Part shown: positions 11,413-44,287 of the stretch, piece by piece
How positions within the stretch are numbered: position 1 is the first letter of the stretch
Layout of the letters: each line of letters opens with the position of its first letter
IMG/VR virus record: IMGVR_UViG_3300020474_001469
Coordinates: 1-64,000 of that record
Reading direction: 5' to 3' (one strand)
From: a virus
DNA: 64,000 nucleotides
Notes under the pieces: model-generated
The model's database searches: none
What the model saw: the letters and a program-made list of their open reading frames with translations, nothing else
Told to the model about the DNA's origin: nothing
Translations under genes and position numbers: made by a program

Positions 11413-11748
11413 ATGGATACAAAGTTAAGCAAAGCATTGGATTTTTCCCAATATATGACTACACTAAACAATCAAAAAAGGTTGTTGTGGGAAAAATACC
11501 AAGAAAGTTTGTTATATTATTGTAATGGAGGAAAGTTTACTATAACTCCTGAACTAATAGCATATTGTAATGCCGCAGGTTATGATAATGTTGTGCTAAT
11601 AGATGATAATCAATTACCCATAAAAGTTACACTGAAAGAATTTTTGTATGATATACGTGTACAATATGGAAAAGCATCTACAGAATATTATGAGCAGTAC
11701 TCCAAGTTAAAAGTAAAAAGAAAAATAGAGGATTTAATTGAAGTATGA
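11413..11748 (+). CDS. Conserved marine T4-like phage protein, unknown function
   Basis: A 111-residue protein with AGGAG before the ATG. The stretch FSQYMTTLNNQKRLL near residue 12, YYCNGGKFTI near 36, and VLIDDNQLPI near 60 resemble a small protein family often found in T4-like marine phages. No catalytic motif is visible. It is the first gene behind a strong sigma70-type promoter and overlaps the following glycosyltransferase gene by 4 bases (ATGA). Confidence 0.6.
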   Translation: MDTKLSKALDFSQYMTTLNNQKRLLWEKYQESLLYYCNGGKFTITPELIAYCNAAGYDNVVLIDDNQLPIKVTLKEFLYDIRVQYGKASTEYYEQYSKLKVKRKIEDLIEV

Positions 11749-12560
11749 GTCAAGGAGTACTGTTATTTGCACACAACAGCCCTCAAATTGATTATGTAAA
11801 ACAGGCAGTATATTGTGCTAAGAAAATAAAAAAACATTTAAGTTTACAGGTAGCACTAGTAACCGATTCTAAAGCATATTTAGAACGAGCATTTCCTTAT
11901 TATTCTAATTATATTGACATTGTTGTAAGCAAACATCATAAAACAGAACAACATAGAAAGTTCTGGAATGGCACTATGTACAAAACATTGCCTTGGAATA
12001 ACTTTACAAGATGTCATAGTTACGATCTGTCGCCATTTGATAGAACACTAGTATTAGATACAGATTTTTTAGTAGGAAATAACTTGTTGCTAAAATGTTT
12101 CAGCAACAATAACTTTAAAATTAGTAGCAGTTTTATAGATTTAAATCCAAGTAGAAATGACATTACACTAAGCAGGGTAAGTGATACATCAATTAATATG
12201 TATTGGGCAACTGTATTTTATTTTTGTAAAAATAAATTTAGCAAAACTTTTTTTAATTTAGTACAACACATACAAGATAATTGGAACTATTATAGGCTTT
12301 GTTATCAAATACAAGAAAATAACTTTAGGAATGATTTTGCATTTTCTATTGCATTGCACTTAATGGGTAATCCTCAAAAAGAATTACCTTGTAGTATATA
12401 CCTAACAACTGATAAAGACTTGCTTCTTAAAATACAAGATGATAGATATAAGATATTATTAGAGAATGAAACTTTATGTTCTGTAAACGAAACAAATATA
12501 CATCTTATGAATAAGTTTACATTGAACGACAACATACATAAGGAGTTACAAAATGAGTAA
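11745..12560 (+). CDS. Putative GT-A fold glycosyltransferase
   Basis: A 271-residue protein. Residues 101-110 (TLVLDTDFLV) carry a hydrophobic strand ending in a DxD motif (D105, D107), typical of metal-dependent nucleotide-sugar glycosyltransferases. The N-terminus (VLLFAHNSPQIDYVKQAVY) looks like the nucleotide-binding strand-helix unit of that fold, with a second strand at VALVTDS. It is a paralogue of the next gene, which has the same layout. Overlaps of 4 and 8 bases with its neighbours show translational coupling. The sugar donor and acceptor cannot be told from sequence. Confidence 0.6.
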   Translation: MSQGVLLFAHNSPQIDYVKQAVYCAKKIKKHLSLQVALVTDSKAYLERAFPYYSNYIDIVVSKHHKTEQHRKFWNGTMYKTLPWNNFTRCHSYDLSPFDRTLVLDTDFLVGNNLLLKCFSNNNFKISSSFIDLNPSRNDITLSRVSDTSINMYWATVFYFCKNKFSKTFFNLVQHIQDNWNYYRLCYQIQENNFRNDFAFSIALHLMGNPQKELPCSIYLTTDKDLLLKIQDDRYKILLENETLCSVNETNIHLMNKFTLNDNIHKELQNE

Positions 12561-13374
12561 AGGATTTTGTTTTGTAGCCCAAAATAACGATACTACAGAC
12601 TACGTAAGGCAAGCATGTCTACTTGCAGTTAGTATACACAAGTTTAACAATAGTCAAAATATTTCCTTAATTACTAATGACCAAGTTCCAAAGAAGTATA
12701 GGGTATTATTTGATAAAATTATACCAATACAAAAAGATGATGCAGAAACTGCAACAAAAAAAATGCATAATCGTTGTAAGATGTATGAGCTATCACCTTA
12801 TACACAAACTATTGGTATGGATGTAGACATGTTAGTTATGCGTGATATAACTAATTGGTGGTCATATTTAAAAAATTATGATTTATTTTTTGTAAGCAAT
12901 GTGAAAACTTATAGAAACGAAACTGTTACGTCTACCTGGCATCGAAAAGTTTTTATTAATAATAATTTACCTAACTTATACAATGGAATATTTTATTTTA
13001 AAAAGTCAAAAACAGCAAAAAAATATTTTGATTTACTAAAAATTATTACACAGAATTGGGAAACATTTTATAAAGTTTACTCTCCTATCAAAATGCAAAA
13101 GTTTTATAGTGTAGATGTTAGTACAGCTATTGCCTGTAAAATTTTAGGAATAGACAAGCAAGTATGCGATCCTAATAGTTTTATTAGTTTTGTTCATATG
13201 AAACCAGCTTTACAAAACTGGAGAGAATCCTGTCTAAATTGGACAGATAAAGTGGATTGGTCTGTAAATAATAGCAAAGAACTTATGGTAGATAACTTTA
13301 TACAAAACAATGTATTTCATTATGTAGAAGATAAGTTTTTAACAGACGAACTTATAAAGGAACTTGAAACATGA
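12553..13374 (+). CDS. Putative GT-A fold glycosyltransferase, paralogue of the preceding gene
   Basis: A 273-residue protein starting at an ATG preceded by AAGGAG. It shares the plan of the preceding gene: FVAQNNDTTDYVRQACLLA at the N-terminus, SLITNDQ as second strand, a Y.LSPY stretch near residue 79, then IGMDVDMLVM with the DxD motif at D90/D92. A later region with NGIFYFKKS and WETFY fits the acceptor-side half of the fold. The pair probably arose by duplication and may add successive sugars; substrates are unknown. Confidence 0.6.
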   Translation: MSKGFCFVAQNNDTTDYVRQACLLAVSIHKFNNSQNISLITNDQVPKKYRVLFDKIIPIQKDDAETATKKMHNRCKMYELSPYTQTIGMDVDMLVMRDITNWWSYLKNYDLFFVSNVKTYRNETVTSTWHRKVFINNNLPNLYNGIFYFKKSKTAKKYFDLLKIITQNWETFYKVYSPIKMQKFYSVDVSTAIACKILGIDKQVCDPNSFISFVHMKPALQNWRESCLNWTDKVDWSVNNSKELMVDNFIQNNVFHYVEDKFLTDELIKELET

Positions 13375-13943
13375 GTTGTTTTGCATATTTTAATGAAGAC
13401 ACGGGCGAAGTTACAGAAATAACTAGCGAAAAAGATAGCACACGTCTTTATATAGAAATAGATGATGCTCTTGCAACAAGTTTTTTAAATGCAACAGAAA
13501 GTATGTTGGATTGGATTGTAACAACTGACAGTGATAACAAGTATGTAATATCAAAAAAACAAAAAAATAAAAAAGAAGTAATAACAAACAATAGTATTTT
13601 TCCATTAAAAAGATTTAACAAAATACAAGAAACACAAGATGTATTTCAAGTTATACAAATAGGAACAAAATGGTTAGGTTATGCAAGTTTAACAAACGAG
13701 TGTAGAGATTTTTATAAACGTAGTAAAGATTATTTTGGACAATATAAGGTTTTGTATGTTACAGAAAAAGGCGATAAAAGAAAACTATTAGAAACTATTT
13801 CTGTTGACTTTGAAAATTTTTTTACTGATACTAAGTTTGAAATACAAGCAGAGACATTAAAAGATTGTGACCTGTATATTGCTTCAGGAAATGATAATTT
13901 TATACATGTAAGGTGTGATAATGAGCATGAAATACTTTACTAG
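13371..13943 (+). CDS. Hypothetical protein in glycosyltransferase operon
   Basis: A 190-residue protein, start overlapping the previous stop by 4 bases. It is acidic at the N-terminus, then has a Lys/Asn-rich linker (residues 60-75), then a mixed alpha/beta region with VFQVIQIGTKWLGYASL. I do not recognise a family. It lies between two glycosyltransferases and a thioesterase, so a role in the same pathway is only guilt by association. Confidence 0.45.
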   Translation: MSCFAYFNEDTGEVTEITSEKDSTRLYIEIDDALATSFLNATESMLDWIVTTDSDNKYVISKKQKNKKEVITNNSIFPLKRFNKIQETQDVFQVIQIGTKWLGYASLTNECRDFYKRSKDYFGQYKVLYVTEKGDKRKLLETISVDFENFFTDTKFEIQAETLKDCDLYIASGNDNFIHVRCDNEHEILY

Positions 13944-14292
13944 AAAGATGATAGCCCACAAAGACTTAAACAGTAATGGGACTCTTTTTGGCGGTCGTGT
14001 ACTTGACTGGATTGATGAGGAAGCATATATTTACTGTAGCTGTCAATTAGATAATGACAGAGTAGTAACAAGAAGTATGAGTAATATTGATTTTCTGCAT
14101 AGTGCAGTAAGAGGAGATATTATTGAAATAGGCATGGAAACAGTGAAGCTAGGAATTACAAGTATTACAATTAAATGTAACGTAAGAAATAAACGTACAG
14201 AAAAAACAATTACCAGTGTTGATAAAATTGTATTTGTAAACTTAGGACCTGATGGTAAGCCTGCACCACACGGAGTAACAAATGAAAGTTAA
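13921..14292 (+). CDS. Hotdog-fold acyl-CoA thioesterase (YciA/BFIT-like)
   Basis: A 123-residue protein. The ATG at 13921, six bases inside a possible GTG start, is preferred because AAGG lies 7 bases upstream. The motif NSNGTLFGGRVLDWIDE is the hallmark of acyl-CoA hydrolases of the YciA/cytosolic thioesterase type, with the conserved Asn, the GG turn and the catalytic-helix Asp. Length equals one hotdog domain. The expected reaction is hydrolysis of acyl-CoA to free acid and CoA. In a phage, possible roles are altering host lipid pools or supplying an acyl group to the island's product; a fatty-acid desaturase lies at the far end of the island. It overlaps neighbours by 23 and 11 bases. 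Confidence 0.8.
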   Translation: MSMKYFTRKMIAHKDLNSNGTLFGGRVLDWIDEEAYIYCSCQLDNDRVVTRSMSNIDFLHSAVRGDIIEIGMETVKLGITSITIKCNVRNKRTEKTITSVDKIVFVNLGPDGKPAPHGVTNES

Positions 14293-15871
14293 CGTTCCAG
14301 ACTGTGATGTAGTTTATTTGTCATATGACGAACCTAATGCAGAAAAAAATTATGCAGATCTTCTAACAAAAGTTCCTTGGGCAAAACGTATACACGGAGT
14401 TGAAGGATCAGATGCGGCACACAAGGCATGTGCAGAAATATCAGAAACACAGCGTTTTATAACTATAGACGGTGATAATATGGTTAAGCCAGAATTTATA
14501 AATCAAAGTGTAGAGTTTGTAGCAGGTTCAGATATTTCTAAAAATGTAATAAGTTGGACAGGATATAACAAGATTAACGGATTGATGTATGGCAACGGCG
14601 GAATAAAATGTTGGGATAGAGATACTGTGTTAAACATGAAAACACACGAAAATGCAGATCCTGATAACATACAAGCACAAGTTGATTTCTGTTGGGATTT
14701 AGAATACATTCAAATGGATGATTGTATGAGTATTGTTGAAAATAACTATAATTCCAAACAAGCATGGAGAGCTGGTTTTAGAGAAGGTGTAAAAATGTGT
14801 TTAATTGAAGGAGAAAAACCTTCCTTAGATGACCTTATAAATGTTCATTGGAAAAATATGCACAGACTATTTGTTTGGACAATGGTAGGGGCAGATGTTA
14901 AAAACGGGCAGTGGGCAATATACGGTGCTCGTGAAGGATTTTACAAAACGATGCTAACAGATTGGGATTATATAAATGTAAGAGATTTTGAATACCTTAA
15001 TGAATATTGGAAAAACAAAATAACTACTGAAGATACTGTATATGACAAGATAGAAGAATACGGAGAAGAACTTATTAACCAGATACAGGTACCTATAAGT
15101 CAATTACCACTGGACGAAGGTGGTAGCAAATTCTTCAAAACATTATATCAAAATCCTCCACGTATAACACATCATACTGTATTACCTAAAGATAGTGGAC
15201 AGTATGATATTATAATGTTATCGTATGGAGAACAAAATTCTAATGAAAATTTTGCAAAACTTAAACAGCGTTTCCCTCAAGCAAAACGTATACATGGAGT
15301 AAAAGGTATTGCAAATGGACACATTGCTTGTGCAGAAATAGCAGATACAGATATGATGTGGATTGTAGACGGAGATGCAGAAGTTTTAGATAATTTTAAT
15401 TTTAATTATGTAGTACCAGAGCATGAAAAAGATGCTGTCCATGTATGGAGAAGTGTAAATCCTGTCAACGACTTAGAATACGGATATGGTGGAGTAAAAC
15501 TTTTACCGGTAGAGCTAACAAAAGAAGTGGACACAAGTAGTGTAGATGTAAACACCAGCATTAGTACAAAATTTAAAGTCATGAAAGAGGTAAGTTGTGT
15601 TACTAAGTTTAATACAGGCCCGTACGAGGCCTGGAAAAGTGCATTTAGAGAATGTTCAAAATTAGCAAGTAAGGTAATAGATCGACAGAAAGAGGATGAA
15701 ACAAATGCCAGACTTAAAACTTGGACGACCGTGGGACACGATAGATTATATGGTGAATATGCTCTGGCAGGCGCTACCGCTGGTATGGAGTTTGGCCTTT
15801 CTGGGGGGTCTGATCTTCAGTTGATAAACGATTTTGATTGGTTAAAGGAAAGATTTGATGAACAATTCTGA
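14282..15871 (+). CDS. Tandem-domain GT-A-like glycosyltransferase
   Basis: A 529-residue protein made of two homologous halves. Each half begins with a (V/I)(V/I).LSY.E.N strand, continues with AKRIHGV and ACAEI, and reaches a DGD motif: ITIDGDN (D63/D65) in the first and WIVDGDAE (D363/D365) in the second. Each then has a GYGG or GNGG turn before a K(L/C) strand. The DxD positions support a nucleotide-sugar transferase, and the repeat suggests an internal duplication with both halves possibly active. It overlaps the thioesterase gene by 11 bases and the next gene by 14. Similar proteins occur in T4-like marine phages without assigned substrates. Confidence 0.55.
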   Translation: MKVNVPDCDVVYLSYDEPNAEKNYADLLTKVPWAKRIHGVEGSDAAHKACAEISETQRFITIDGDNMVKPEFINQSVEFVAGSDISKNVISWTGYNKINGLMYGNGGIKCWDRDTVLNMKTHENADPDNIQAQVDFCWDLEYIQMDDCMSIVENNYNSKQAWRAGFREGVKMCLIEGEKPSLDDLINVHWKNMHRLFVWTMVGADVKNGQWAIYGAREGFYKTMLTDWDYINVRDFEYLNEYWKNKITTEDTVYDKIEEYGEELINQIQVPISQLPLDEGGSKFFKTLYQNPPRITHHTVLPKDSGQYDIIMLSYGEQNSNENFAKLKQRFPQAKRIHGVKGIANGHIACAEIADTDMMWIVDGDAEVLDNFNFNYVVPEHEKDAVHVWRSVNPVNDLEYGYGGVKLLPVELTKEVDTSSVDVNTSISTKFKVMKEVSCVTKFNTGPYEAWKSAFRECSKLASKVIDRQKEDETNARLKTWTTVGHDRLYGEYALAGATAGMEFGLSGGSDLQLINDFDWLKERFDEQF

Positions 15872-16694
15872 ATCGACATTACAATGGGTTAGAGGTTTGT
15901 CAGAATATCTTGACTTTGTAAAAGACGATAAATCTAAAATGTTTATTGATTTTTTAGAACAAAGTATGTATGCAGATAATCCAGTTATTGATAATACTAA
16001 TCAAAAAGGAATGATAGAATTTATAAGTATCCTTAGAAAATTTGCTCCTAATGAGATTTTTGATATATTCCATAAGTATTATAGATTAGGTTTTGATCCA
16101 AAAGCACTTCAAGATGCATTTAGTAGAGGACAAGTATTAAGTAAAATCTGGTTAGTAAATGAGCTTGTAAAAATACAAAAAAACTTTGATATGATTCATG
16201 TACATGCAGGTTGGTTTGGGCAAATAAGATTGTACTTAGATCAGATGCAGATAAAGTATAATAAAATGCGTGTGTTTGATATAGATAAAACAGCAAATGA
16301 AGTAAGTGACAAAGTGTTTAATAATTTGTTGTTAGAAAATTATTATGTTAAAGCTTCTATTGCAGACGTAGATAATCTTGCAACACTTTATAGAACAGGA
16401 TTTGAATATCCAATTACTGAGGACAAAAATGAAAAAACAGAAGCAGACTTGATTATAAACACAAGTGCAGAACATTTTCAAGAAAATTGGTTTTTAAAAT
16501 ATAGAAATAAACCACAGTCTACAGATCCTTTGTTTATTATTCAGACAAATAATTTGCATAGTCTACCCGAGCATGTAAATACTATACACAACGTAGAAGA
16601 AATGATAAAAAAATATCCTATGTCTCGGGTAGAGTATAGTGGACAATTAGAATTACAAGGATATACTAGATATATGTTGATAGGAAGAATATAA
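15858..16694 (+). CDS. Putative class I SAM-dependent methyltransferase
   Basis: A 278-residue protein. The ATG at 15858 is preferred over an in-frame TTG three bases earlier because AAAGGAAAG lies at proper spacing. After an all-helical N-terminal third comes a Rossmann-like pattern: MIHVHAGWFGQIRLYL (SAM-loop position), then MRVFDIDKTANE with the acidic residue after the second strand, VKASIADVDNL, DLIINTSAEHF, and LFIIQTNN. This order fits class I methyltransferases. The substrate is unknown. It overlaps the glycosyltransferase upstream and shares one base with the next gene. Confidence 0.5.
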   Translation: MNNSESTLQWVRGLSEYLDFVKDDKSKMFIDFLEQSMYADNPVIDNTNQKGMIEFISILRKFAPNEIFDIFHKYYRLGFDPKALQDAFSRGQVLSKIWLVNELVKIQKNFDMIHVHAGWFGQIRLYLDQMQIKYNKMRVFDIDKTANEVSDKVFNNLLLENYYVKASIADVDNLATLYRTGFEYPITEDKNEKTEADLIINTSAEHFQENWFLKYRNKPQSTDPLFIIQTNNLHSLPEHVNTIHNVEEMIKKYPMSRVEYSGQLELQGYTRYMLIGRI

Positions 16695-17365
16695 TGTCAG
16701 TAAGAAAAATTGAAGCTGGTGAAGATTGGGCTCTATGGAGGTCAGACGTAGTAGAAAATAATATTGAACAAATGTCTGCAGAACTAGGCAGAGCATATAG
16801 GCTTTTTACAGAAACATTTACAGGTATGAATTCTTCGCTTACAAGTTTAGATCCTTTTAATAATACTTCGTTAAAAGATTTACCAAATATATTCCAAAAT
16901 GTAAAACGAGAAGAACAGGAAGATAGAAATTTTTTAAACACTAATCAAGATGTATCAGGTTACAGATTTTACAATGTGTTTGCCTTAACTACACCGAGTC
17001 CTCTTTTTTGGGAACTATTTCAAGAAATAAAATATATTGTTGAACAACAGTTTGATTATCACGGACCAAAATGGATTCAGTGCTGGTTAAATTATCACAA
17101 GCAAGATGAAGTTTTAGATTGGCATAACCATGCTTTCCCTATGCACGGGTATGTGTCTATTCGCCCTCATTATACTACAACTACTTTTGGTGATTATGAA
17201 GTTAAAAATGAAATTGGAAATATATACATTGGTCCTGGCCATAGAGATCATAAAGTAATTGTAAACAAGGAATGGAAAGATGATATGCCTAGGTTAACAC
17301 TAGGATATGATATAATTACAGATGTAAATATCCCAGACAATCAATTTTCCGCTATACCGTTATGA
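16694..17365 (+). CDS. Putative 2OG-Fe(II) oxygenase-like protein
   Basis: A 223-residue protein. In the C-terminal half, WIQCWLNYHKQDEVLDWHNH is followed by HGYVSIRP, GNIYIGPGHRDHKV and RLTLGYDI. This resembles the double-stranded beta-helix family of putative 2OG-Fe(II) oxygenases, with iron ligands expected at the HNH segment and the later HRDH segment and a following Arg for 2-oxoglutarate. The first ligand pair is not a clean HxD, so activity is uncertain. It starts at TAATG, one base shared with the methyltransferase stop, and overlaps the next gene by 4. Confidence 0.5.
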   Translation: MSVRKIEAGEDWALWRSDVVENNIEQMSAELGRAYRLFTETFTGMNSSLTSLDPFNNTSLKDLPNIFQNVKREEQEDRNFLNTNQDVSGYRFYNVFALTTPSPLFWELFQEIKYIVEQQFDYHGPKWIQCWLNYHKQDEVLDWHNHAFPMHGYVSIRPHYTTTTFGDYEVKNEIGNIYIGPGHRDHKVIVNKEWKDDMPRLTLGYDIITDVNIPDNQFSAIPL

Positions 17366-17589
17366 TTGAAAATTTAACTTTACGCAAATTACAGTTAGAA
17401 TGTGCTAGAGCTTTACAGACTATGCAAGCCACTAATAATAACATACATCAATTTAATAAAAAGGCCCACCATAATAGCCAAGACTGGTATAAGGCAGTAG
17501 TAGAATGGTATATTAATTCATATGGTGGATTACCGAGCAAGGTAGGTCCTGGCACAAAAGTAAAATTAATTATGGATAGTGAAGAATGA
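17362..17589 (+). CDS. Small hypothetical protein
   Basis: A 75-residue protein with ATGA overlaps on both sides (17362-17365 and 17586-17589). It is helical at first (LRKLQLECARALQTMQA) and ends with SYGGLPSKVGPGTKVKLIM. I recognise no family. Its small size inside an operon rich in radical SAM enzymes makes it the only short candidate for a modified peptide or adaptor, but it has no leader/core character such as Cys-, Ser/Thr- or Gly-rich repeats, so this is weak. Confidence 0.45.
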   Translation: MIENLTLRKLQLECARALQTMQATNNNIHQFNKKAHHNSQDWYKAVVEWYINSYGGLPSKVGPGTKVKLIMDSEE

Positions 17590-18134
17590 AAGATATCACA
17601 CCAAAACACAACCAACACAAACAAAACAAAAACAAAATTTTTGTTAAAAAAAATAAAGTTTATAAAACTTTACGAACCGGTAAAGTATATGGACCTGATT
17701 GGTTAAAAGCCTATCGTAAAATATATGAACGTAATAAAAATTTGGTTAAAGTTTATGATGTTTTAGAAGAAGGTACAATGATATTAATGGAGAGGCTAGA
17801 CATAATATGTACTTTAGACCAACTTTTTAGTAAAGATTCTAAACATAAAAATTTAATAACAAAAGATTTAATATGTGAAATAATTAGTGTTATAAGTAGG
17901 TCTTGGGCAATAGATTTTGAATATTCTAAAACACTTACAGGCCATGAATATTTTATACACAATGACTTAAAATTATCTAATTTAGCTTTGACTAGCGACT
18001 ATCAGATTAAATTCATAGATCCTGACTCATACGGATTTACTTTTGAATTAGATGGTGGATACACGTTTATTCAAACACATATAGAACTAATGCATAGAAT
18101 ACAAAGGTATTATAATAATATAAAAGATGTATAA
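17586..18134 (+). CDS. Mini protein-kinase/aminoglycoside-phosphotransferase-like protein
   Basis: A 182-residue protein. Residues 125-132 (HNDLKLSN) match the catalytic loop HxDxxxxN of kinase-like phosphotransferases, and IDPDSYG (D145, D147) matches the metal-binding DFG-equivalent. Upstream, MILMERLD (65-72) fits the hinge. The N-lobe is very short and Lys-rich. At 182 residues it is well below the usual 250-300, so it is a minimal version. Possible substrates are a sugar, a small metabolite or a protein. It overlaps neighbours by 4 and 8 bases between the 2OG-like and radical SAM genes. Confidence 0.6.
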   Translation: MKDITPKHNQHKQNKNKIFVKKNKVYKTLRTGKVYGPDWLKAYRKIYERNKNLVKVYDVLEEGTMILMERLDIICTLDQLFSKDSKHKNLITKDLICEIISVISRSWAIDFEYSKTLTGHEYFIHNDLKLSNLALTSDYQIKFIDPDSYGFTFELDGGYTFIQTHIELMHRIQRYYNNIKDV

Positions 18135-19191
18135 TTACGCAGATATAAAAACAATTCATTTAGAGATTACGCAGAATTGTCAAGCGGCTTGTCCTATGTG
18201 CGATCGTAACATGAATGGTGAAGGAATAAATCCTCATATAAACTTAGATGAACTATCTCTAAAAGATTGTATGGATATCTTTCCTCCAAAATTTATTAGT
18301 CAACTTGATACTATGTATATGTGTGGAAATTTAGGAGATCCTATAATTGCAAAAGACACATTAGAAGTATTTGATTATTTTAGACAAAATAATTCTACAA
18401 TGTGGTTAAGCATGAATACAAACGCAGGAGCAAAAAATGTTGAATGGTGGAAAAAACTTGCTAAAACAATTGGAAAAAAGGGTGCCGTTATATTCTCTGT
18501 TGACGGTCTTAGTGACACTAATCATCTGTATAGGCAAAATGTTGTTTGGAACAATGTAGAACGCAACATGCGAGCATTTATTGAAGCTGGAGGTAGAGCT
18601 CGTTGGGATTTTTTAATTTTTGAACATAATCAACATCAAGTAGAAGAAGCACAAGACCTTGCAAACAAATGGGGTTGTGAAAAATTTGTTGCTAAAAAAA
18701 CAGGAAGGTTTATTACACAAGATTCACAAAAGAAAGAATCACACCAAGCAGTAAGTAAGAAAGGACAAAACACAGCTGAATTAAAAAAGCCTGATCCTAA
18801 GTACCAAAACAAGGCATTAAAAAAACAAGATATTATTATAAAAAAATATGGTAGTATGGATGCATACTATGATGTTGCTCCTATTAAACCTAAATGTGTT
18901 GACAAGAAGGAAATTTACGTAAGTGCAGAAGGGTTAGTACTTCCTTGTTGTTGGACAGCAGGTAGGATGTATAAATGGTGGCATAAAGATCCTTATGTAG
19001 AACAGATATGGGATTTCATAGATAAAGATAAAATTAACGCTAAGAAAGGCTTAGAACAAGTTTTCGAGACAGACATATTTACAAATATATCTAACAGTTG
19101 GAATAAATCCAGTTGTGCTGATGGAAAATTAAAAGTTTGTGCAATGAAATGCGGAGCAGAATTTGATCCATTTACTGAACAATTTAAATAA
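18127..19191 (+). CDS. Radical SAM protein, island group I
   Basis: A 354-residue radical SAM enzyme. The CxxxCxxC cluster motif is at C18/C22/C25 (ITQNCQAACPMC). Further signatures are YMCGNLGDP near residue 63 and IFSVDGLSDTNHLYRQN near 122. The C-terminal third has a Cys-rich SPASM-like region (CVDKKEIYVS...LPCCWTAG, then Cys pairs at the end), suggesting an auxiliary cluster and a peptide or large-molecule substrate. Closest relatives in the window are 19210, 21429 and the - strand 38664 gene. Its ATG overlaps the kinase gene by 8 bases with no strong ribosome-binding site, implying coupling. Confidence 0.85.
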   Translation: MYNYADIKTIHLEITQNCQAACPMCDRNMNGEGINPHINLDELSLKDCMDIFPPKFISQLDTMYMCGNLGDPIIAKDTLEVFDYFRQNNSTMWLSMNTNAGAKNVEWWKKLAKTIGKKGAVIFSVDGLSDTNHLYRQNVVWNNVERNMRAFIEAGGRARWDFLIFEHNQHQVEEAQDLANKWGCEKFVAKKTGRFITQDSQKKESHQAVSKKGQNTAELKKPDPKYQNKALKKQDIIIKKYGSMDAYYDVAPIKPKCVDKKEIYVSAEGLVLPCCWTAGRMYKWWHKDPYVEQIWDFIDKDKINAKKGLEQVFETDIFTNISNSWNKSSCADGKLKVCAMKCGAEFDPFTEQFK

Positions 19192-19196
19192 GATAA

Positions 19197-19208
19197 GTAC
19201 GTATATAA
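19197..19208 (+). promoter_or_regulatory. TACGTATATAA motif before a radical SAM gene
   Basis: The segment ATAAGTACGTATATAAA (from about 19193) is the same as at 10359. It lies directly before the ATG at 19210, where no ribosome-binding site is visible. It may be a promoter or leader element; role inferred only from recurrence. Confidence 0.3.
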
Positions 19209-37008: not shown

Positions 37009-37550
37009 TTATATTTCCAGATAGGATTTTTATTCTTATTCCTAAGTGTGGCTGTAACAGTATTATGAGTATGTATGGTGTAAATCCTTGGGCAAAACAT
37101 AGACAACATATTGAAAATAAAGAGGAAGCAGTTTTATATTTAAAAGGAGATTATCCCCATATGCCTGTTAGTCAGATTCCAGAAAGATTTTCTTATCTGC
37201 CTACAGAAGCGATAGTCAGAAACCCTTGGCATAGAACTGTAAGTAGATATTTTTATCTACAAAAAATGAACGACTTCGAAATGAGTTTTGAAGAATTTGT
37301 AAAAAGTAAGTATATACATCCTATGTACAAACAAGATCCTGATTATGCCAAATGGGGTAGTGTAAGTTGGACACAACAGATTGAATGGATTGACGATAAT
37401 ACAAAGGTACATAAATTTGAAGAGTATGATTTTACGTTACATGAAAATAAATCACATAGTCGAGATTTTGAAAGTATGTATAATAACGAGTTATATAAAA
37501 TAGTAGGAGATTATTACATAAAAGATGTAGAAAGGTTTAATTATGTATAA
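37005..37550 (+). CDS. Sulfotransferase-family protein
   Basis: A 181-residue protein. ILIPKCGCNSI (10-20) matches the 5'-phosphosulfate loop of carbohydrate-type sulfotransferases (P.KCG..S), and AIVRNPWHRTVSRYFY near 68 matches the 3'-phosphate-binding RNP.eR..S.Y motif. The predicted reaction is sulfate transfer from PAPS to a sugar or other hydroxyl. At 181 residues it is short but has both motifs. It overlaps the flanking 2OG-like genes by 4 and 8 bases. A second sulfotransferase-like gene is on the - strand at 40369. Confidence 0.75.
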   Translation: MIIFPDRIFILIPKCGCNSIMSMYGVNPWAKHRQHIENKEEAVLYLKGDYPHMPVSQIPERFSYLPTEAIVRNPWHRTVSRYFYLQKMNDFEMSFEEFVKSKYIHPMYKQDPDYAKWGSVSWTQQIEWIDDNTKVHKFEEYDFTLHENKSHSRDFESMYNNELYKIVGDYYIKDVERFNYV

Positions 37551-38130
37551 AAGTTGTTATGAAGTAGATGTTAAATTGCCAGATGATTATGTAGATAAGG
37601 CATTAAAAGCATTTCACGAAAGATTGCCGGAGGCTTATACAGATAGAGCACCTGATGCCCATATAGATGAGTATCCCGAATTGTTTGAAATATTTGGAGA
37701 TATGAAAGGTTGGTTTGCACCAAAGGTTAGATTGCTTAACCACACTCCTAACGAACTAGGGACAACGGCACCACACTTTGATGTCAATGAGCATTGGCAA
37801 TATGAAGATATGGATAGATTTATTAAAATTGAAGCAAGTTTGAATGTTCCATTATTTGCCCCAGAAGGCGTTGTTACACGTTGGTATCAACAAAAGAATC
37901 CAGATGTTATACACCCATATGACTTTTGGGAAGGTAAAAAATATGAAATGCGAACAGTAGATGAATTTGAAATTACAAATAAGCCTGTATTGTTTAGAAC
38001 AGGTATTTGGCATGCTGTAGAAAAATCAGACAGCAAACGCACTATGCTAAGTTTCAGTGCAAGATATGGTATCGATTGGGATACTTTTGTAAATTGTTGG
38101 AGAGACAGCGGATTACTTATTGAGCGTTAG
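37543..38130 (+). CDS. 2OG-Fe(II) oxygenase-like protein, WHK family member 3
   Basis: A 195-residue protein, last gene of the + strand half of the island. TAPHFDVNEHW near residue 75 supplies an HxD pair, FRTGIWHAVEKSD near 148 the distal His, and KRTMLSFSARYG an Arg. The tail CWRDSGLLIER matches the two earlier members. Its final 14 bases overlap the end of the convergent gene 38117-38677. Confidence 0.6.
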   Translation: MYKSCYEVDVKLPDDYVDKALKAFHERLPEAYTDRAPDAHIDEYPELFEIFGDMKGWFAPKVRLLNHTPNELGTTAPHFDVNEHWQYEDMDRFIKIEASLNVPLFAPEGVVTRWYQQKNPDVIHPYDFWEGKKYEMRTVDEFEITNKPVLFRTGIWHAVEKSDSKRTMLSFSARYGIDWDTFVNCWRDSGLLIER

Positions 38131-38677
38131 ACTCGCCCTTCCAGCGTAAAAATGGTTCTTCACTTGCAAAAGGCCAACCACTAATATTTAATCTATCACC
38201 AGTACAGTTATCTACTTCATGTAGTATGTCTACATGCATACATACAAGCCTATTTCGTTTAGGTAATATGCTTATACCATCGACACGTAAAGCACCATCA
38301 GTTTCGTCTGTCAGGTATAACATGTATGTCCAATCACCGTATATTTTATGATCCTCTATATGTGGAGCACAGAAACTTCTTTCTGGTTCAAACTTTTTTG
38401 CAAACAGTTGCAGGGGATTAAGTTTTTCTGTTGGAAGATCTAAACCTATTACATTGCCTATTTTTTTCAACAAAGGATAACGCAAGTCACTTCGCCTAAG
38501 TTCTGTGCGTAGCATATACCAATCATAGTCTGTTTTTTCTTCCATTACATGATTACAGTCTTCATTGTTTAATGAAATAGTTTCAGCTCCGGTAACTAAC
38601 TTTGTAAGATCTGTAATTAATTCTTCTTCTAAAAAATTATCACAAATTATTAATGTATCAAACTCAGTTCTTAGCAT
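38117..38677 (-). CDS. 2OG-Fe(II) oxygenase, prolyl-4-hydroxylase-like, HxE variant
   Basis: A 186-residue protein. KKFEPERSFCAPHIEDH (94-110) precedes WTYMLYLTDETDGALRV, the usual P4H core. CMHVDILHEVDN gives the distal His (H153) and DRLNISGW the Arg (R162). The proximal ligand pair reads H106-I-E108 rather than HxD, as in a few family members such as clavaminate synthase. The function is probably hydroxylation of an unknown substrate. It overlaps the upstream radical SAM gene by 14 bases. Confidence 0.75.
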   Translation of the reverse strand: MLRTEFDTLIICDNFLEEELITDLTKLVTGAETISLNNEDCNHVMEEKTDYDWYMLRTELRRSDLRYPLLKKIGNVIGLDLPTEKLNPLQLFAKKFEPERSFCAPHIEDHKIYGDWTYMLYLTDETDGALRVDGISILPKRNRLVCMHVDILHEVDNCTGDRLNISGWPFASEEPFLRWKGESNAQ

Positions 38678-39737
38678 AATTTAATTCCTTTGTATTCCAA
38701 TTTTTTCCATATCCACTACTGTATTCAAATTTTTGCCCACATGTCCTTCCACATGTATATATTCTTTTATATTTGTCATCAGGATTATTCCAGGATCTTT
38801 CTAAATAAGTTTGGAAAAATTCGTTTTGTAAAACATTCCAACCATATTTTCTCATATCATTAAAATCTTCGCCATACAAGTCTAAAAAATATTTAAAACT
38901 TTCCCATTGTTTAGTATGCCTTTTGTCGGCAAAATATTTAGGACCACCAAACCAACAGCATGGCCATAGGCGCATATCCATATCAATAAATAATCTAAAA
39001 TCTTTTTTAAACTTACAAGTGATATCTGTATTTGCAACATAATCATCAAAGTTTTTGTATTGAGAAAGTACAGAAGAAAAGTCTTGTGTTACGTGACTGT
39101 CTTTATTTTTTACCGTATTGCCTTTTCTAGTTTTAACTTGCGTTTTTGTATCTTGAAATCTAGCAGTATATTTTACAGTAAAATTGGTAAATCCTAATTT
39201 ACTTGCTAATTTTTCTGCATCATCTATTTGATGATAATTATGTGCAAACTCTATAAATTGCCATTCTGCTTTCCCACCAGCTTTTATATAAGCAGTTGCA
39301 TTTTCAATAATTTTTTCGAAATTACTTCCTATTCTATACAAATGATTAGTATCTTTTAATCCGTCTATTGAAAATACTACAGATAGTTTTTCTTTGCCGT
39401 TATTAGCTAAGTCAGTCCACCACTTAGGTTTCCTAGCACTACCATTTGTTTCTATTCTCATTGTTCTTGTAAAATCTAAACTGTATAAAAAAGTTTCTTC
39501 AAAGGTCGGACTTGCTATTATATCTCCAAAGTTTCCACAATGAATAATTTGGTCTAATTTATTATTTGTAAAAGGTTCTAATATAATTTTATAATCTTGT
39601 AAAGTTAAATCAGTGATTGGCATACCTGGATTTACTTTTTGATCTTTACTTACCCTGCCACATTGTGGACACATTAAATTACATCTGCTTGTATGATCAA
39701 GCATTAATTTTTTAATGTATGAAGTATTAGTAAACAT
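38664..39737 (-). CDS. Radical SAM protein, island group I
   Basis: A 357-residue protein. The ATG at 39737 shares a base with the upstream stop codon and is preferred to in-frame starts 36 bases earlier that lie inside the other gene. C19/C23/C26 lie in TSRCNLMCPQC. IIHCGNFGDI, FSIDGLKDTNHLYRIGSNF and FIEFAHNYHQ line up with 18127, 19210 and 21429, although this copy is on the other strand. A SPASM-like tail includes LWPCCWFGG and CGRTCG. Substrate unknown. Confidence 0.85.
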   Translation of the reverse strand: MFTNTSYIKKLMLDHTSRCNLMCPQCGRVSKDQKVNPGMPITDLTLQDYKIILEPFTNNKLDQIIHCGNFGDIIASPTFEETFLYSLDFTRTMRIETNGSARKPKWWTDLANNGKEKLSVVFSIDGLKDTNHLYRIGSNFEKIIENATAYIKAGGKAEWQFIEFAHNYHQIDDAEKLASKLGFTNFTVKYTARFQDTKTQVKTRKGNTVKNKDSHVTQDFSSVLSQYKNFDDYVANTDITCKFKKDFRLFIDMDMRLWPCCWFGGPKYFADKRHTKQWESFKYFLDLYGEDFNDMRKYGWNVLQNEFFQTYLERSWNNPDDKYKRIYTCGRTCGQKFEYSSGYGKNWNTKELNYAKN

Positions 39738-40384
39738 TATTTTATAAGTGCAAATTTCTTGCAGTCGTCCCAACTTTCAGTATCGTAAGGTATATGGGCA
39801 ACTACTCGCCAATGATCAGTAGGATTCACAACCTGATGAAACTGATGTCTATTAAAGATAGCAGGCTTTTCGTGTAAACAATATTCTACAGCAACTTCTT
39901 CGTCTGGTATTTCTGATAATTCTGGCCTGCCTTTAATATAATTATAGCTGTCTATATATCTATTATCTTCTGGATCGTGCCAATGTGCATACTTTGTTAT
40001 GCTTTGTTCATCAGTGCCTATTAATGGTAACATTAAGGCACCTGCATGCCAATCAGGTGAAGGAGCAGGATGTCTGTGCGGGACAAATATAGGAGTTATT
40101 TCTGGACATGTAACAAAAAACATAACATCAGATACAAGATGAAACTTAGGTATTAATCTTTGCCATTCGTTGTATTCAGGTAAATGCATAATTTGTCCAA
40201 TACGAACTTTTGTCCACATTCTGGCTCTATAAAATGCATCATTGCGTTCAAAATGTTTTTTAAAGTAATCGGTTCTTGGTTGGTTAGTGACTAAGCTAGG
40301 ACATATATTAAATATATCTCTACACATCCTTTGCATTAACGTATAATCTTCACTCCATTCAAGTTCTATTATAAAATCATCCAT
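39737..40384 (-). CDS. Putative 2OG-Fe(II) oxygenase/cupin-like protein
   Basis: A 215-residue protein. VPHRHPAPSPDWHAGALMLP near residues 112-131 and PAIFNRHQFHQVVN near 177 form a beta-helix-like pattern with His at both expected iron positions, then HWRVVAHIP with an Arg. The first pair is not a standard HxD. It overlaps the sulfotransferase-like gene upstream by 16 bases. Function unknown. Confidence 0.45.
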   Translation of the reverse strand: MDDFIIELEWSEDYTLMQRMCRDIFNICPSLVTNQPRTDYFKKHFERNDAFYRARMWTKVRIGQIMHLPEYNEWQRLIPKFHLVSDVMFFVTCPEITPIFVPHRHPAPSPDWHAGALMLPLIGTDEQSITKYAHWHDPEDNRYIDSYNYIKGRPELSEIPDEEVAVEYCLHEKPAIFNRHQFHQVVNPTDHWRVVAHIPYDTESWDDCKKFALIK

Positions 40385-41010
40385 TTATATTCCCTTGCAT
40401 TTTCTATTACTGACTCGTAATCTATGTAATCTCTCATTTTAGCATATTCAGTAGATAAATTCATTTCCTCATAGTTAAATGTTTTAAGTTTATTAAATTT
40501 TCTCAAATCTAAACTGTTATCACGGTTATTAATATCTAACCATAATTCTACGTCAGATTTATCAATTTGTATTTTTTGTTTTTTAATTTTGTTCATTTCA
40601 CTTACTTTAGGATTAGGATGCTCCCAACCTGTTTTTTGTTGATATGTATGACTTAAAAACTGCTCCCATTTGTTTTGTCTTTGTAAATAGTATACATTTT
40701 TATCTTCGTAAAAACTATATAACCATTCTCTATGATCTTCCCAGTTATATATCTGACTTGGAAATAGTTTTATACAATAGTGCCTGTCTTTTTTTATTTC
40801 TGATTCAATAAACTTGGTTTTTGAAGCAAGATTGTCTTTATCTAACTGGTCAAACATTTCTAATAGATGTTTATGGTTTCTTCTTTTAATCCAATATAAC
40901 CAATCTTTGTTAAAGTATTCTCCAATGTAATTACTAGGTTTATCCAAGTAGCTATCTATAAACCAAGTGCTTCCACTTCTTGGACTAGCTATTAGTAGTT
41001 TAGTATCCAT
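40369..41010 (-). CDS. Sulfotransferase-like protein
   Basis: A 213-residue protein; the ATG at 41010 starts right before the motif. LLIASPRSGSTWF (5-17) is the phosphosulfate-binding loop of the PAPS-dependent sulfotransferase family. VYYLQRQNKWEQFLSH near 103 takes the place of the 3'-phosphate motif R....S, in weakened form. It overlaps the upstream gene by 11 bases. It is the second sulfotransferase of the island and not a close copy of the one at 37005. Confidence 0.65.
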   Translation of the reverse strand: MDTKLLIASPRSGSTWFIDSYLDKPSNYIGEYFNKDWLYWIKRRNHKHLLEMFDQLDKDNLASKTKFIESEIKKDRHYCIKLFPSQIYNWEDHREWLYSFYEDKNVYYLQRQNKWEQFLSHTYQQKTGWEHPNPKVSEMNKIKKQKIQIDKSDVELWLDINNRDNSLDLRKFNKLKTFNYEEMNLSTEYAKMRDYIDYESVIENAREYKWMIL

Positions 41011-41743
41011 TTTGTTTCTGCCAGTCACTCCAATCAAAACTTCCATCTTCTAGCCACTGATTATTATGAGTATCACCCTTGCTTTGCAGACCGTGAATAC
41101 TACCTACTAAGTGTAATCTTTTATAATCTGTATATGGAACTTGATGAGGGCGAACAGTATTAAGTAGGAATGCTTCTCCTGGATCACACATAATAGGCCC
41201 AGCATCAGTATCTATTGCACTTACTTTAGGATCATTTTCTAATACATGATGATATCTAAATCCAGTATCTCCATCTGTATGCCATTCAAAGATACATTCA
41301 TTTTCCATATAGCTATACCAATAATTACTTCGACCCATATTATTACAATATTCATTTAATGCCTGATAATGATGTTCGCCTAGTTTTTTCATATCATTAT
41401 GTAAAAAACACCAAATATCTTTTTGTGTATAGTTTCCTAGTCTTGCATTTTCTTGGCGCATCATTATCTTATATAGTGTTCCTGTTTCAAGATGATGTTC
41501 TTCAGTGTAATCTTCCCAGTCTGGTTCATCTTCTATTACAAACCCACGTAAGCTATCAACAAAATCTTTTTTATGCATAAGTTTGTCACTACGTTTTAGA
41601 TATACATTCATGTATGTTTGGTTGCCAAACTTAATATCATCAAAAAATTCTTCAGTCATCTCATAGAATAGATCTGTCATTTCTTTTGTATTACTGATAG
41701 GCGGAATCTTTTTCCAAGCGTCTGTCATATGTGGGTCAAACAT
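41000..41743 (-). CDS. Putative 2OG-Fe(II) oxygenase
   Basis: A 247-residue protein. The ATG at 41743 is chosen because AGAGGAAG lies 7 bases upstream; another ATG at 41728 forms an ATGA overlap but has no ribosome-binding site. FEWHTDGDTGFRYH gives an HxD pair, and AFLLNTVRPHQVPYTD followed by KRLHLVGSI gives the distal His and Arg. The N-terminal half is helical and Met/Lys-rich. Part of an unbroken - strand run with overlapping ends. Confidence 0.65.
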   Translation of the reverse strand: MFDPHMTDAWKKIPPISNTKEMTDLFYEMTEEFFDDIKFGNQTYMNVYLKRSDKLMHKKDFVDSLRGFVIEDEPDWEDYTEEHHLETGTLYKIMMRQENARLGNYTQKDIWCFLHNDMKKLGEHHYQALNEYCNNMGRSNYWYSYMENECIFEWHTDGDTGFRYHHVLENDPKVSAIDTDAGPIMCDPGEAFLLNTVRPHQVPYTDYKRLHLVGSIHGLQSKGDTHNNQWLEDGSFDWSDWQKQNGY

Positions 41744-42183
41744 TCGTATACTTCCTCTATTGGTTCTGCAAAACAAATTTGAAAATTTGTCCGCACATGG
41801 TTATTATTATTTACAAAATGTTCCTTTTGTGTATTCATTAGCACAGGAGTTTCATGTGTAACAATAGGACCATCTACAAATTCACAGTTAGCGTAATCTT
41901 TGTGCCAATAAAGTGGAACAATCAATACTGTGTTTCTATCCCATTTGTCGTTGTCTATATGGGGAATAACTTTTGATCCAGGCGGCTGTTGAACAAACAT
42001 AGTATAACTTTTTAACGGAAACCTATTATACTTTTCAATGTTGTTATCCCAACATAGGTTGCCGTCATATGCTCCACCTTTTGTTGGATATGATATAAAA
42101 TTACTCCAGTCTAGACTTAGTTCTAATTCTTTAACTTCGCCATCAGAGATAACATTAGGTATCGCTATCCAATAAGGTAGCAT
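41725..42183 (-). CDS. Putative 2OG-Fe(II) oxygenase, compact
   Basis: A 152-residue protein, close to the minimum for this fold. FVQQPPGSKVIPHIDNDKWD near residue 63 has an HxD pair, TVLIVPLYW follows, and PVLMNTQKEHFVNNN then HVRTNFQICF give the distal His and Arg. It shares one base with the gene upstream (42183) and overlaps the gene downstream by 19 bases. Substrate unknown. Confidence 0.65.
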   Translation of the reverse strand: MLPYWIAIPNVISDGEVKELELSLDWSNFISYPTKGGAYDGNLCWDNNIEKYNRFPLKSYTMFVQQPPGSKVIPHIDNDKWDRNTVLIVPLYWHKDYANCEFVDGPIVTHETPVLMNTQKEHFVNNNNHVRTNFQICFAEPIEEVYECLTHI

Positions 42184-42833
42184 TATGTATATACCGCAAA
42201 TTTTTGTGCTTGTACAGCTTCTTCACAAACTTTAACATTAAGTATTAGCCATAAGCTATCACTGTTTACACTATTATTAAATAGGCAATGCGGTTTATGT
42301 GTGTTCATAAAGTATGATGTACCTTGTTGCCAATAGATAGGTTGCATGGTTGCTCCACCACCAAACATAAAATGAAATGTTGGAGGGTTTACATTTTTAA
42401 TAGGAGTTATAATCCTAAATACTTCCGGATCGTTGATTCTGTCACCGTCACAATGTGTGGGAAAATAACCTCCTGGCGGCAGTTTAATAAAATGACTTCT
42501 TGCTATCCAATCCTTCCAAGGGTCAACTAATTTACGTACTTCCTCGCACTGGTGATAGACAGGTGTAAGTGTTGTATAACTTGCTTCGTAAAAAATTTCG
42601 CCTGTTCGTTCCATTACGTCTTTGAGGCTATCTAGGTCGTTACCATCAAAACCCCCATCAATACTAGTTACACTTAATCCGTCTCGTAGGATATGTGGTT
42701 TACCAGGATTAAATTTTTTCCATTTATCTTTAAATGGCTCTAGTTCTTTTTGTAATTTACCTGTATTACATTTAAATTTTGTTGGTAGTAAATCACCATA
42801 GTTACACATTATATTGTAAAGATGCCAACTCAT
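42183..42833 (-). CDS. Putative 2OG-Fe(II) oxygenase
   Basis: A 216-residue protein. FIKLPPGGYFPTHCDGDRIN near residue 119 has the HxD pair after the LPPGG arm common in Asp/Asn hydroxylase-like proteins. SYFMNTHKPHCLFNNS near 177 provides the distal His, followed by LWLILNV. It overlaps the SDR-like gene upstream by 32 bases, an unusually long overlap here. Confidence 0.65.
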   Translation of the reverse strand: MSWHLYNIMCNYGDLLPTKFKCNTGKLQKELEPFKDKWKKFNPGKPHILRDGLSVTSIDGGFDGNDLDSLKDVMERTGEIFYEASYTTLTPVYHQCEEVRKLVDPWKDWIARSHFIKLPPGGYFPTHCDGDRINDPEVFRIITPIKNVNPPTFHFMFGGGATMQPIYWQQGTSYFMNTHKPHCLFNNSVNSDSLWLILNVKVCEEAVQAQKFAVYT

Positions 42834-43281
42834 TTATAACCTCCTGTACTGCTTCTTCTAGTGTTGTTTTTGTTATTAGATTAGGATTATCTTTTGTAAG
42901 TTCATGATTTTTTAGAAATCCCCATGTAAGATACTTTTGATTAAGTGTAGTACTTATATTCCTTAATGCTAATTTATTCTGTTTCTTGATTTTATATTCT
43001 TCATCTATAACATTAGCTTCAGTAATATTACTGCCTATATTGATACAAGGAATCTTTTTTTTATTTGCTAGTACACTTATATTTACTTGTGCATTTCCAA
43101 CTTCTGCGTTGTTTACAATTACATCAAACTTTGTTTCAAAAATAGCATCAGCATTGAACAATAAATTATAACCATTTGTTCTACTAAATCCTACTACCTC
43201 GTATCCTCCTTGAATACATTTTTCTTTAATATGTTTGCCGAAGCCTTTCGTATGCCCGGTTATGCCAATCGTAATACCCAT
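42802..43281 (-). CDS. Short-chain dehydrogenase/reductase-like protein
   Basis: A 159-residue protein beginning ITIGITGHTKGFGKHI, a TGxxxGxG NAD(P)-binding loop, followed by YEVVGFSR and FDVIVNNAEVGN, the NNAG-like strand. The catalytic Tyr-xxx-Lys is replaced or displaced (EEYKIKKQNKLAL is the nearest), and the protein is about 90 residues shorter than typical SDRs. It may be a degenerate or minimal nucleotide-sugar epimerase or reductase. Overlaps its neighbours by 32 and 22 bases. Confidence 0.6.
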   Translation of the reverse strand: MGITIGITGHTKGFGKHIKEKCIQGGYEVVGFSRTNGYNLLFNADAIFETKFDVIVNNAEVGNAQVNISVLANKKKIPCINIGSNITEANVIDEEYKIKKQNKLALRNISTTLNQKYLTWGFLKNHELTKDNPNLITKTTLEEAVQEVINELASLQYNV

Positions 43282-43715
43282 TGCAGGCCTCCTCGTGGTA
43301 TATCTTCCTGTGTCAAATTCCAGTTATAAAAGTTATGTTTTTGAAACCATTCCAGTAATTTAGGATTTTCTTCTCTGCTTATCCAGATATCTTTATATCC
43401 TAATTCTAATGCATACTTTGTACTTTGTTCTAACGTTTCGTTTCCTCGTTGCAGATCATCGTTCATACTCCCCCAATCATAATCTCTATCTCTTGTATGT
43501 CTACTCATAATACGTATGCTACCATTATATTCAGGACGTTCTATGCCTGCACTATAATAAATTAGATGGGGATCGTATGCCATACGGGAAAATTTAGTAT
43601 GTTCAAATAATGGCCATTGTACATAATTAGATTCATGTTTATGACCTTTTGTTTTTTTAAATAGTTCTTTTATATCATTTAAATGAGGATTAATATCTTC
43701 TAGTAACCATTTCAT
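43260..43715 (-). CDS. GNAT-like acetyltransferase (tentative)
   Basis: A 151-residue protein. IYYSAGIERPEYNGSIRIMS near residue 52 could be the central beta strands. LEQSTKYALELGYKDIWISR and NPKLLEWFQKHNFYNW resemble the final helix-strand and N...fyek.GF end of GNAT folds. A clear acetyl-CoA pyrophosphate loop (Q/RxxGxG/A) is not evident. It overlaps the desaturase gene upstream by 4 bases (ATGA). Confidence 0.4.
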   Translation of the reverse strand: MKWLLEDINPHLNDIKELFKKTKGHKHESNYVQWPLFEHTKFSRMAYDPHLIYYSAGIERPEYNGSIRIMSRHTRDRDYDWGSMNDDLQRGNETLEQSTKYALELGYKDIWISREENPKLLEWFQKHNFYNWNLTQEDIPRGGLQWVLRLA

Positions 43716-44287
43716 GGAATGCTTTCTTCGTGATGATCTTTATGGTTACCTTCAAAGGGTGCAATAACATTTACCCATAATCTGTTTGCAGGACCTTCTG
43801 CGTCGTGACCAAACAAGTTTAGCACACCAAAACCTAAGTATGCAAGAAGAAATATTATTGATAAAATTACTAGAGCATTTACACCGAAAAGTAAAAACCA
43901 TAAAATAGTGTTTGCAATATAGATTGTATATCTATGTTTATGGAAAAATACTACTCTTGGATTCTTTATCATGTCTTTTATATATTTCCTTGGTATTGAT
44001 TCAATATGCCATAAACTAAAAAGTATATTATACCAGGGTTGGAACTTAGCACTATGGGGGTCTTTTTCAGTATCAGCAAATTCGTGGTGCATACGATGTA
44101 CGCCAACCCATCCTAAAGGACTTCTTAGCCCACATAGCAATCCGCAGTAAAGCATTACAATTTCTTGCCACTTATTTGCCTTAAAACTTTTATGTGAAAA
44201 ATACCTATGATAACCATAAGTAACACCTATTGTTACAACAACCATGTAACAAAAATAAGATAAGAGTATAAGATATAGTACTTCCAT
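43712..44287 (-). CDS. Membrane fatty-acid desaturase, short
   Basis: A 191-residue membrane protein with all three histidine boxes of acyl-lipid/acyl-CoA delta-9-type desaturases: HRYFSH (27-32), HRMHH (64-68) and HKDHH (182-186). Hydrophobic segments lie near residues 3-22, 42-58 and 120-155. It ends six residues after the third box, where the usual family continues, so it is at the lower size limit. It would introduce a double bond in a fatty acyl chain at the host membrane. With the thioesterase at 13921 it hints at lipid remodelling or acyl supply to the island's product. Confidence 0.85.
   Translation of the reverse strand: MEVLYLILLSYFCYMVVVTIGVTYGYHRYFSHKSFKANKWQEIVMLYCGLLCGLRSPLGWVGVHRMHHEFADTEKDPHSAKFQPWYNILFSLWHIESIPRKYIKDMIKNPRVVFFHKHRYTIYIANTILWFLLFGVNALVILSIIFLLAYLGFGVLNLFGHDAEGPANRLWVNVIAPFEGNHKDHHEESIP

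Follow-up and report, generated by a model that had tools for sequence, protein, structure and literature searches.

A Possible Glycoconjugate Tailoring Island, Rich in Radical SAM Genes and Divisible into Two Units, beside the Tail Fibres of a T4-like Phage

Overview of the Island

What do about 40 tightly packed enzyme genes do beside the tail fibres of a phage? The genes fill positions 11413–44287 of the window, which comprises bases 1–64000 of the 85,654-base IMG/VR virus record IMGVR_UViG_3300020474_001469. The initial annotation had read them as one 33-kb biosynthetic island, with a decorated glycan or lipid, a modified virion protein or a hypermodified nucleotide as candidate products. 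The best explanation, to which we give a probability of about 0.45, is a phage glycoconjugate pathway with tailoring by radical S-adenosylmethionine (rSAM) enzymes and 2-oxoglutarate (2OG) oxygenases, placed beside the tail fibres of a large T4-like phage. A glycan or glycoconjugate is the best supported of the candidate products; a modified virion protein stays in contention, and a hypermodified nucleotide is the least supported. The initial annotation had named no product or precursor gene, and none was found in this analysis either.

The island is made up of two units, A (11413–31603) and B (31620–44287). It was not treated as one unit because A and B differ in distribution, and the single pathway implied at first is not proven. 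The phage DNA polymerase is of the T4 type (phrog_262), and its nearest relatives, at 42–50% identity, are those of the jumbo phages Phosso, Atu_ph07 and others. By this sequence comparison, the source is a T4-like phage of the sort represented by Atu_ph07 and Phosso. Among related records that share its g22 gene, lengths of 236 and 257 kb occur.

Unit A adjoins the tail-fibre and virion genes g03–g06 (4868–11351, + strand), which form the left border of the island. Matches to tail or virion phrogs were obtained for g03–g05 and none for g06, and g02–g06 border the island in relatives too. Neighbouring genes overlap in 35 of the 39 pairs, which fits co-translation. Overlaps at nearly all junctions had been described before, and this stands; the biggest (g24/g25) measures 143 nucleotides (nt) and becomes 11 nt when g25 starts at ATG 28229. 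Throughout, the assignments of g13, g28, g40, g08/g09 and the QueD-like and DpdA-like genes come from motifs read by eye or from annotations of distant homologues.

Distribution of the Two Units in Viruses

Nine related contigs (G001–G009), which came from a scan with g24, were compared by tblastn. Most of g02–g27 was common to them with the order kept, and g28–g46 had no relatives there except g38, which matched as an rSAM paralogue. The g27 gene was 69–99% identical in G001, G003–G005 and G007–G009; contigs G002 and G006 stop before it. A single gene separates g27 from g48 in G004, G005 and G007. Because g27 nearly adjoins g48 there, the stretch from 31620 to ~45600 is extra relative to those contigs.

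An alignment search for g22 orthologues gave 544 IMG/VR stretches, and the best 80 were kept, which makes them a biased sample. The order of g12-g13-g15-g17-g22-g27 (core A) was constant in most of these 80, while the extra rSAM genes varied. Where 6 kb or more of upstream sequence was available (73 loci), g17 was present in 73, g12 in 68, g15 in 60 and g13 in 55. The complete order g12-g13-g15-g17-g22 was found in 46 of the 73, and the absences partly reflect gene fusions and thresholds. The median number of labelled rSAM-family open reading frames (ORFs) per g22 locus was 9, and the content between the core genes differed strongly among loci.

The scan with g34 yielded 76 viral loci at 73–91%. 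Core B comprises g34 (76 of 76 loci), g46 (59) and g28 (54). Unit B was mostly whole and in order in eight loci (L148, L149, L153, L154, L155, L158, L181 and L218), five of which adjoin g27 within the fetched stretch. For many g46/g28/g34 loci the fetched sequence, which reaches 10 kb on each side only, showed no genes of unit A, so the absence of unit A is not proven. A viral pattern scan with g41 gave nothing, yet tblastn gave g41 relatives in eight of the g34-scan loci; empty pattern scans are therefore weak evidence. Around unit B, scans for promoters and terminators stayed at shuffle level.

The recurrence of both gene sets in order across many contigs is, on these comparisons, more than chance. 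The outcome named at first as a refutation, homologues scattered singly and not together, was not observed: most of the nearest viral loci keep the order of core A, and eight show synteny of unit B. This supports the earlier proposal of a phage-borne biosynthetic or tailoring cluster. The same data bear on the alternative that the island is unrelated cargo, with at least two separate accessory sets gathered in a hypervariable region and no common product. That A and B are found apart and that the content between core genes is highly variable would suit it. We consider it quite unlikely, because many contigs keep the core order within each unit, that of A being common to phage and bacteria, and because g17, g18 and g20 look locally duplicated, which would be expected of a diversifying pathway.

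Since core A is common in uncultivated viruses, its chemistry is probably widespread. Core B was also seen in a far larger phage, the 518,643-base virus record L193, with relatives of g46, g28 and g34 at 30–78%. Two contigs (L049 and L050) in metagenome-assembled genomes of Neisseriaceae and Planctomycetota contained core A genes with g22 at 65–74%, and may be misbinned phage sequence.

Core Proteins of Unit A

The core A gene g12 (14282–15871, +) encodes a predicted tandem two-domain GT-A glycosyltransferase. Pfam gave a weak GT2 match. The AlphaFold2 model (predicted local distance difference test (pLDDT) 86.8, predicted template modelling score (pTM) 0.58) contained two GT-A domains. Its top Foldseek matches were chondroitin polymerase K4CP and heparosan synthase (E ~1e-5), and individual GT-A enzymes matched with a probability of ~1. 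The bifunctional GT-A polymerases K4CP and heparosan synthase 2 also have two GT-A domains per chain, but they share ~8–9% identity with g12 and pack the domains differently. The counterpart of g12 is two adjacent genes in several relatives. The GT-A glycosyltransferases of the initial annotation thus hold for g12 by its model, and g08 and g09 (11745–13374, +), GT8-like and syntenic in relatives, have a DxD motif by eye and no Pfam GT match.

The product of g13 (15855–16694, +) is class-I methyltransferase-like. Its homologue in the Pelagibacter phage Mosig is annotated as a methyltransferase (E 1e-19) and the motif was seen by eye; PDB profile searches with g12 and g13 gave no match. The third core gene, g15 (17362–17589, +), encodes a conserved 75-aa three-helix protein (AlphaFold2 pLDDT 79.5). 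It was present in 66 of ~80 loci with a mean column identity of 64%, and its helical model had no fold match. For this reason, and because conservation over its whole length is unlike a leader/core precursor, g15 found no support as a precursor or recognition element.

Counterpart in Bdellovibrionia

Relatives of g22 (E <1e-100) were found in 13 of 144 genomes of Bdellovibrionia, a class including predatory bacteria. In the fetched loci, g17 was near g22 in nearly all, g27 in most, and relatives of g12 or g13 in many. Two contigs with the g17-g22-g27 triad measure 494 and 937 kb and have housekeeping-type neighbours, which indicates that the triad is chromosomal. Like the island, these loci contain the trio as orthologues, frequently accompanied by relatives of g12 or g13; unlike it, they have no tail fibres, and their neighbours are of the GT2, short-chain dehydrogenase/reductase (SDR)-like and pilus types. 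Glycos_transf_2 was matched by 13 of 80 scanned bacterial neighbours (ten loci pooled; background rate unmeasured). The pilus-type genes, found at several loci, are Tad/prepilin-like by eye, with two Tad Pfam matches.

More tentatively than for the glycoconjugate pathway itself, we propose that the phage and Bdellovibrionia share an rSAM-rich pathway, whose conserved core might build a glycan or glycoprotein of a new, radically modified class. Swapping of further rSAM and 2OG modules could then diversify it, as in an arms race of surface chemistry.

One bacterial locus (L231) contained a g22 paralogue without the trio. An N-terminal rSAM-like stretch with CxxxCxxC was seen in L053:14174-15679 and L054:13684-15186, joined to a GT2 domain in L053. 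Repeat-rich ORFs by the triads in L140, L142 and L144 were considered as precursors and rejected, as they adjoin or end GT2 genes (by eye).

Comparison with Known Systems

Host-recognition clusters (HRCs) of pelagimyophages contain glycosyltransferases and rSAM cassettes, two clusters differ by added rSAM cassettes, and host O-chain modification has been proposed for their glycosyltransferases (PMC7029224). Viral contigs from the Tasman Sea are enriched in rSAM and glycosyltransferase genes (PMC7150976). The island resembles the HRCs of pelagimyophages and cyanomyophages (PMC7029224) in being a hypervariable region beside T4-like tail-fibre genes, with rSAM genes and a glycosyltransferase, g12 (g08/g09 by motif only). 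It differs from them in a polymerase nearest to jumbo phages Phosso and Atu_ph07, a six-gene core, 12 rSAM genes and a bacterial counterpart.

The cultivated phage Mosig EXVC030M (MT647606.1) has an island at ~54.7–71.8 kb, between tail fibres and VrlC. It shares g34 (70%), g28 (43%), g43 (39%) and g46 (37%) and has weak relatives of g13, g17/g18/g20 and g21. It differs in lacking relatives of g12, g15 and g22, with a marginal match to g27 only, and has three annotated MoaA-like genes, with carbamoyltransferase and ArnB-like genes instead. With its unit B relatives, this phage is the best experimental handle. In the cultivated Vibrio phages K566 and K567, a few N-twitch-like rSAM genes form a small cluster at ~20% identity, but no relatives of g12, g13, g15 or g27 were found in the stretch. 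The K566 cluster is VPHK566_0303-0308 (L048:19971-26707).

Searches of 50,697 phage records with g22, g24 and g27 gave two records only, at ~20% identity. Twelve rSAM enzymes in ~22 kb is well beyond anything in cultivated phages. In the open-licence PMC literature, no paper was found on the core of six genes, on unit B as a separable module or on the counterpart in Bdellovibrionia. The two-unit structure, the cores and the bacterial counterpart therefore appear undescribed, whereas rSAM cassettes in pelagimyophage clusters have already been reported. The product is made testable by the core genes, by their bacterial counterpart and by a pelagiphage in culture that has unit B genes.

Proposed Function

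A glycoconjugate is the best reading because of the GT-A model of g12, the GT2 neighbours in bacteria and the glycosyltransferases in HRCs of related marine phages (PMC7029224). Genes of the sulfotransferase, methyltransferase, aminotransferase and carbamoyltransferase types, here or in the island of Mosig, also count for it. Four points are inferred: joint action of units A and B, a glycoconjugate as the product, its location and the order in which the reactions run. The island would make or remodel a surface glycoconjugate, either of the phage adhesion apparatus or of the envelope of the infected host. The g12 protein would transfer sugars, probably from host sugar nucleotides, after which methyltransferase-like g13 and the rSAM enzymes g17, g22 and g27 would work on the sugar chain or on the molecule that carries it. 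The g15 protein may be a carrier or scaffold. The variable further rSAM enzymes, including one tied to a PP-loop ATPase, would diversify the product. Unit B would be a separable decoration module with a pyridoxal phosphate (PLP) enzyme, Asp/Asn-hydroxylase-like 2OG oxygenases, a desaturase, a sulfotransferase and a B12-dependent rSAM enzyme.

Several results weigh against this explanation. Pfam scans of the island revealed no nucleotide-sugar pathway, flippase or polymerase, so it does not qualify as a self-contained O-antigen or capsule cluster. Among the 25 of 30 families listed for 110 representative variable proteins, the only such entries were a single cytidylyltransferase and a single NTP-transferase. 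Global TM-scores of g12 in Foldseek were low (~0.2), which is probably due to different domain packing, and its matches include the protein glycosyltransferases SunS and pp-GalNAc-T. Peptide maturases predominate among the nearest named rSAM models, though with scores far under their cut-offs. No substrate was identified in this analysis, and the two units may lead to different products.

The chief rival, which follows not far behind although we regard it as unlikely in itself, is protein or peptide tailoring. The enzymes would then modify tail fibres or some other protein of the virion (surface proteins of the pilin-like type in bacteria), or else a small peptide, as in clusters for ribosomally synthesized and post-translationally modified peptides (RiPPs). 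The prevalence of peptide maturases among the distant rSAM relatives speaks for it, as do the recurring Asp/Asn-hydroxylase-like 2OG enzymes, nitroreductases and one ATE_C match, the adjoining tail fibres, the Tad/prepilin-like genes near the triad in several Bdellovibrionia loci and the location of small g15 between g13 and g17. Set against this, no precursor is recognisable, the sole candidate being g15 with its whole-length conservation (ORFs <60 aa were not searched), no RiPP recognition element (PqqD-like) was matched by Pfam in the island proteins, g15 itself being helical and of no matched fold, and the bacterial GT2 neighbours better fit glycans. Collagen-like substrate repeats were sought in the tail proteins, and none were found.

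Radical SAM Genes

The initial annotation had listed twelve rSAM genes in the island and one outside. The twelve were confirmed, with an intact CxxxCxxC motif in 12 of 12, which places them in the radical SAM superfamily; the one outside is QueE-like. The whole record has 12 PF04055 matches, all within the reported interval, and the twelve genes lie in 18127–39773. At protein level, 10 of the 12 pass the Pfam cut-off, and g17 and g38 are slightly under it. Membership of NF033640 (NCBIfam, twitch domain-containing radical SAM) requires a score >170 bits. This was passed by g22 (422.6 bits), g26 (229.1), g23 (220.4), g24 (203.6) and g19 (202.6). By contrast, g17, g25, g27 and g38 were under this cut-off, g29 is of another (B12) type, and the scan excluded g18 and g20.

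In the core A triad, g17 (18127–19191, +) has a C-terminal SPASM-like Cys motif by eye, g22 (23093–24499, +) is the N-terminal-twitch hallmark of the core, and g27 (30491–31603, +; Pfam rSAM match) forms its right end. A paralogue of g17, g18 (19210–20265, +), has 72% DNA identity to it over 114 nt. A DNA stretch with 63–72% identity is shared by g17, g18 and g20 (21423–22370, +; Pfam rSAM match, variable), consistent with local duplication. The variable genes g19 (20246–21442, +) and g23 (24489–25727, +) and the gene g26 (29397–30488, +) encode N-terminal-twitch enzymes.

In g24 (25708–28239, +), an N-terminal-twitch rSAM domain is fused to a PP-loop ATPase domain (SGGADS, CxxC) with Cys near the end. 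One gene encodes both parts in this phage and in G001, a close relative, and two separate genes do so in G002–G009. The Cys pattern of its C-terminal domain suggested QueC, which was rejected; NCBIfam gave a weak TilS_N match only (in 10 of 10 members), and the PP-loop motif is present. The gene g25 (28229–29404, +; Pfam rSAM match), whose longest ORF starts at 28097, is split into two genes in most of G003–G009.

In unit B, g29 (32357–33877, +) encodes a B12-binding, KedN5-like rSAM protein that is 93–94% identical in L148 and L218, and g38 (38664–39773, −) is related to g17.

Other Genes of the Island

The PLP-like gene reported at first is g28 (31620–32378, +), the aminotransferase-like member of core B; its Mosig relative (43%) is annotated as an aminotransferase, and SFSKPFG was seen by eye. 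Among eleven supposed 2OG oxygenases, eight are well supported. Pfam identified g34 (36397–37008, +; PF05118), which is Asp/Asn beta-hydroxylase-like and belongs to core B, and g37 (38117–38677, −), a 2OG-Fe(II) oxygenase (PF13640, over the cut-off). In profile comparison with g34, at least 92% was reached by g32 and g33 (within g30–g33, 33874–36400, +), g36 (37543–38130, +; hhalign 95%) and g41, g42 and g43 (41000–42833, −; hhalign 93–100%). The neighbouring g30 was borderline (59%), g31 was unassigned, and g14 and g39 were unsupported by Pfam or by profile comparison with g34. Two sulfotransferases had also been proposed: g35 (37005–37550, +) passed the PF03567 cut-off, and g40 (40369–41046, −) has a PRSGSTW motif by eye only and no Pfam match. 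Within 42802–43715 (−), g44 is weakly SDR/epimerase-like and g45, present in 27 of 76 unit B loci, is unassigned.

The desaturase and thioesterase of the initial annotation were both borne out by strong Pfam matches. The former is g46 (43712–44287, −), a fatty-acid-desaturase-like membrane protein of core B (7e-11), and the latter g11 (13915–14292, +), a 4HBT thioesterase (E 2e-14). Together with the PLP enzyme and the B12-dependent rSAM enzyme, they could point to a pathway by which a lipid or a diffusible metabolite is made or altered during infection of the cell. The hydroxylase family moreover includes lipid A hydroxylases such as LpxO. We judge such a pathway improbable, as g11 had no tblastn match in any of the nine relatives G001–G009, no acyl-carrier or synthase genes were seen, and core A is without lipid enzymes.

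A small conserved protein, g07 (11413–11748, +), lies at the tail-fibre border and in the same place in relatives. The nitroreductase call agrees with the similarity of g21 (22365–23009, −) to Mosig_00093, which is annotated as a nitroreductase. The kinase-like call corresponds to g16, whose match is under the Pfam cut-off.

Apparent 7-Deazaguanine Genes Outside the Island

An apparent 7-deazaguanine DNA-modification set lies outside the island at 53769–62574 (−). It comprises a QueE-like rSAM gene (53769–54698, −; phrog_2076), FolE (54910–55605, −; Pfam) and, by eye, a QueD-like gene (59353–59841, −) and a DpdA/TGT-like gene (61114–62574, −). DpdA-like relatives were found in 11 of 14 related records and FolE in 9 of 14. 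Phage DNA hypermodification employs glycosyltransferases and tailoring enzymes, so these four genes raise the question of whether the island decorates phage DNA bases. This is highly improbable. The set sits ~10–18 kb outside the island, bacteria have the core A trio on their chromosomes, and Tet_JBP was found in 0 of 14 related records, in a search whose control matched nowhere.

The QueE-like protein has CNLQC with the third Cys only at residue 88, that is, a long insertion inside the usual CxxxCxxC. Near the end of record L010 (2–2404, −), an 801-aa protein was observed that contains numerous tandem QQCSxxALHDxxCPGYATAYFN-type repeats, with two Cys in every repeat; judging by these repeats, it is a possible candidate for a substrate of tailoring enzymes.

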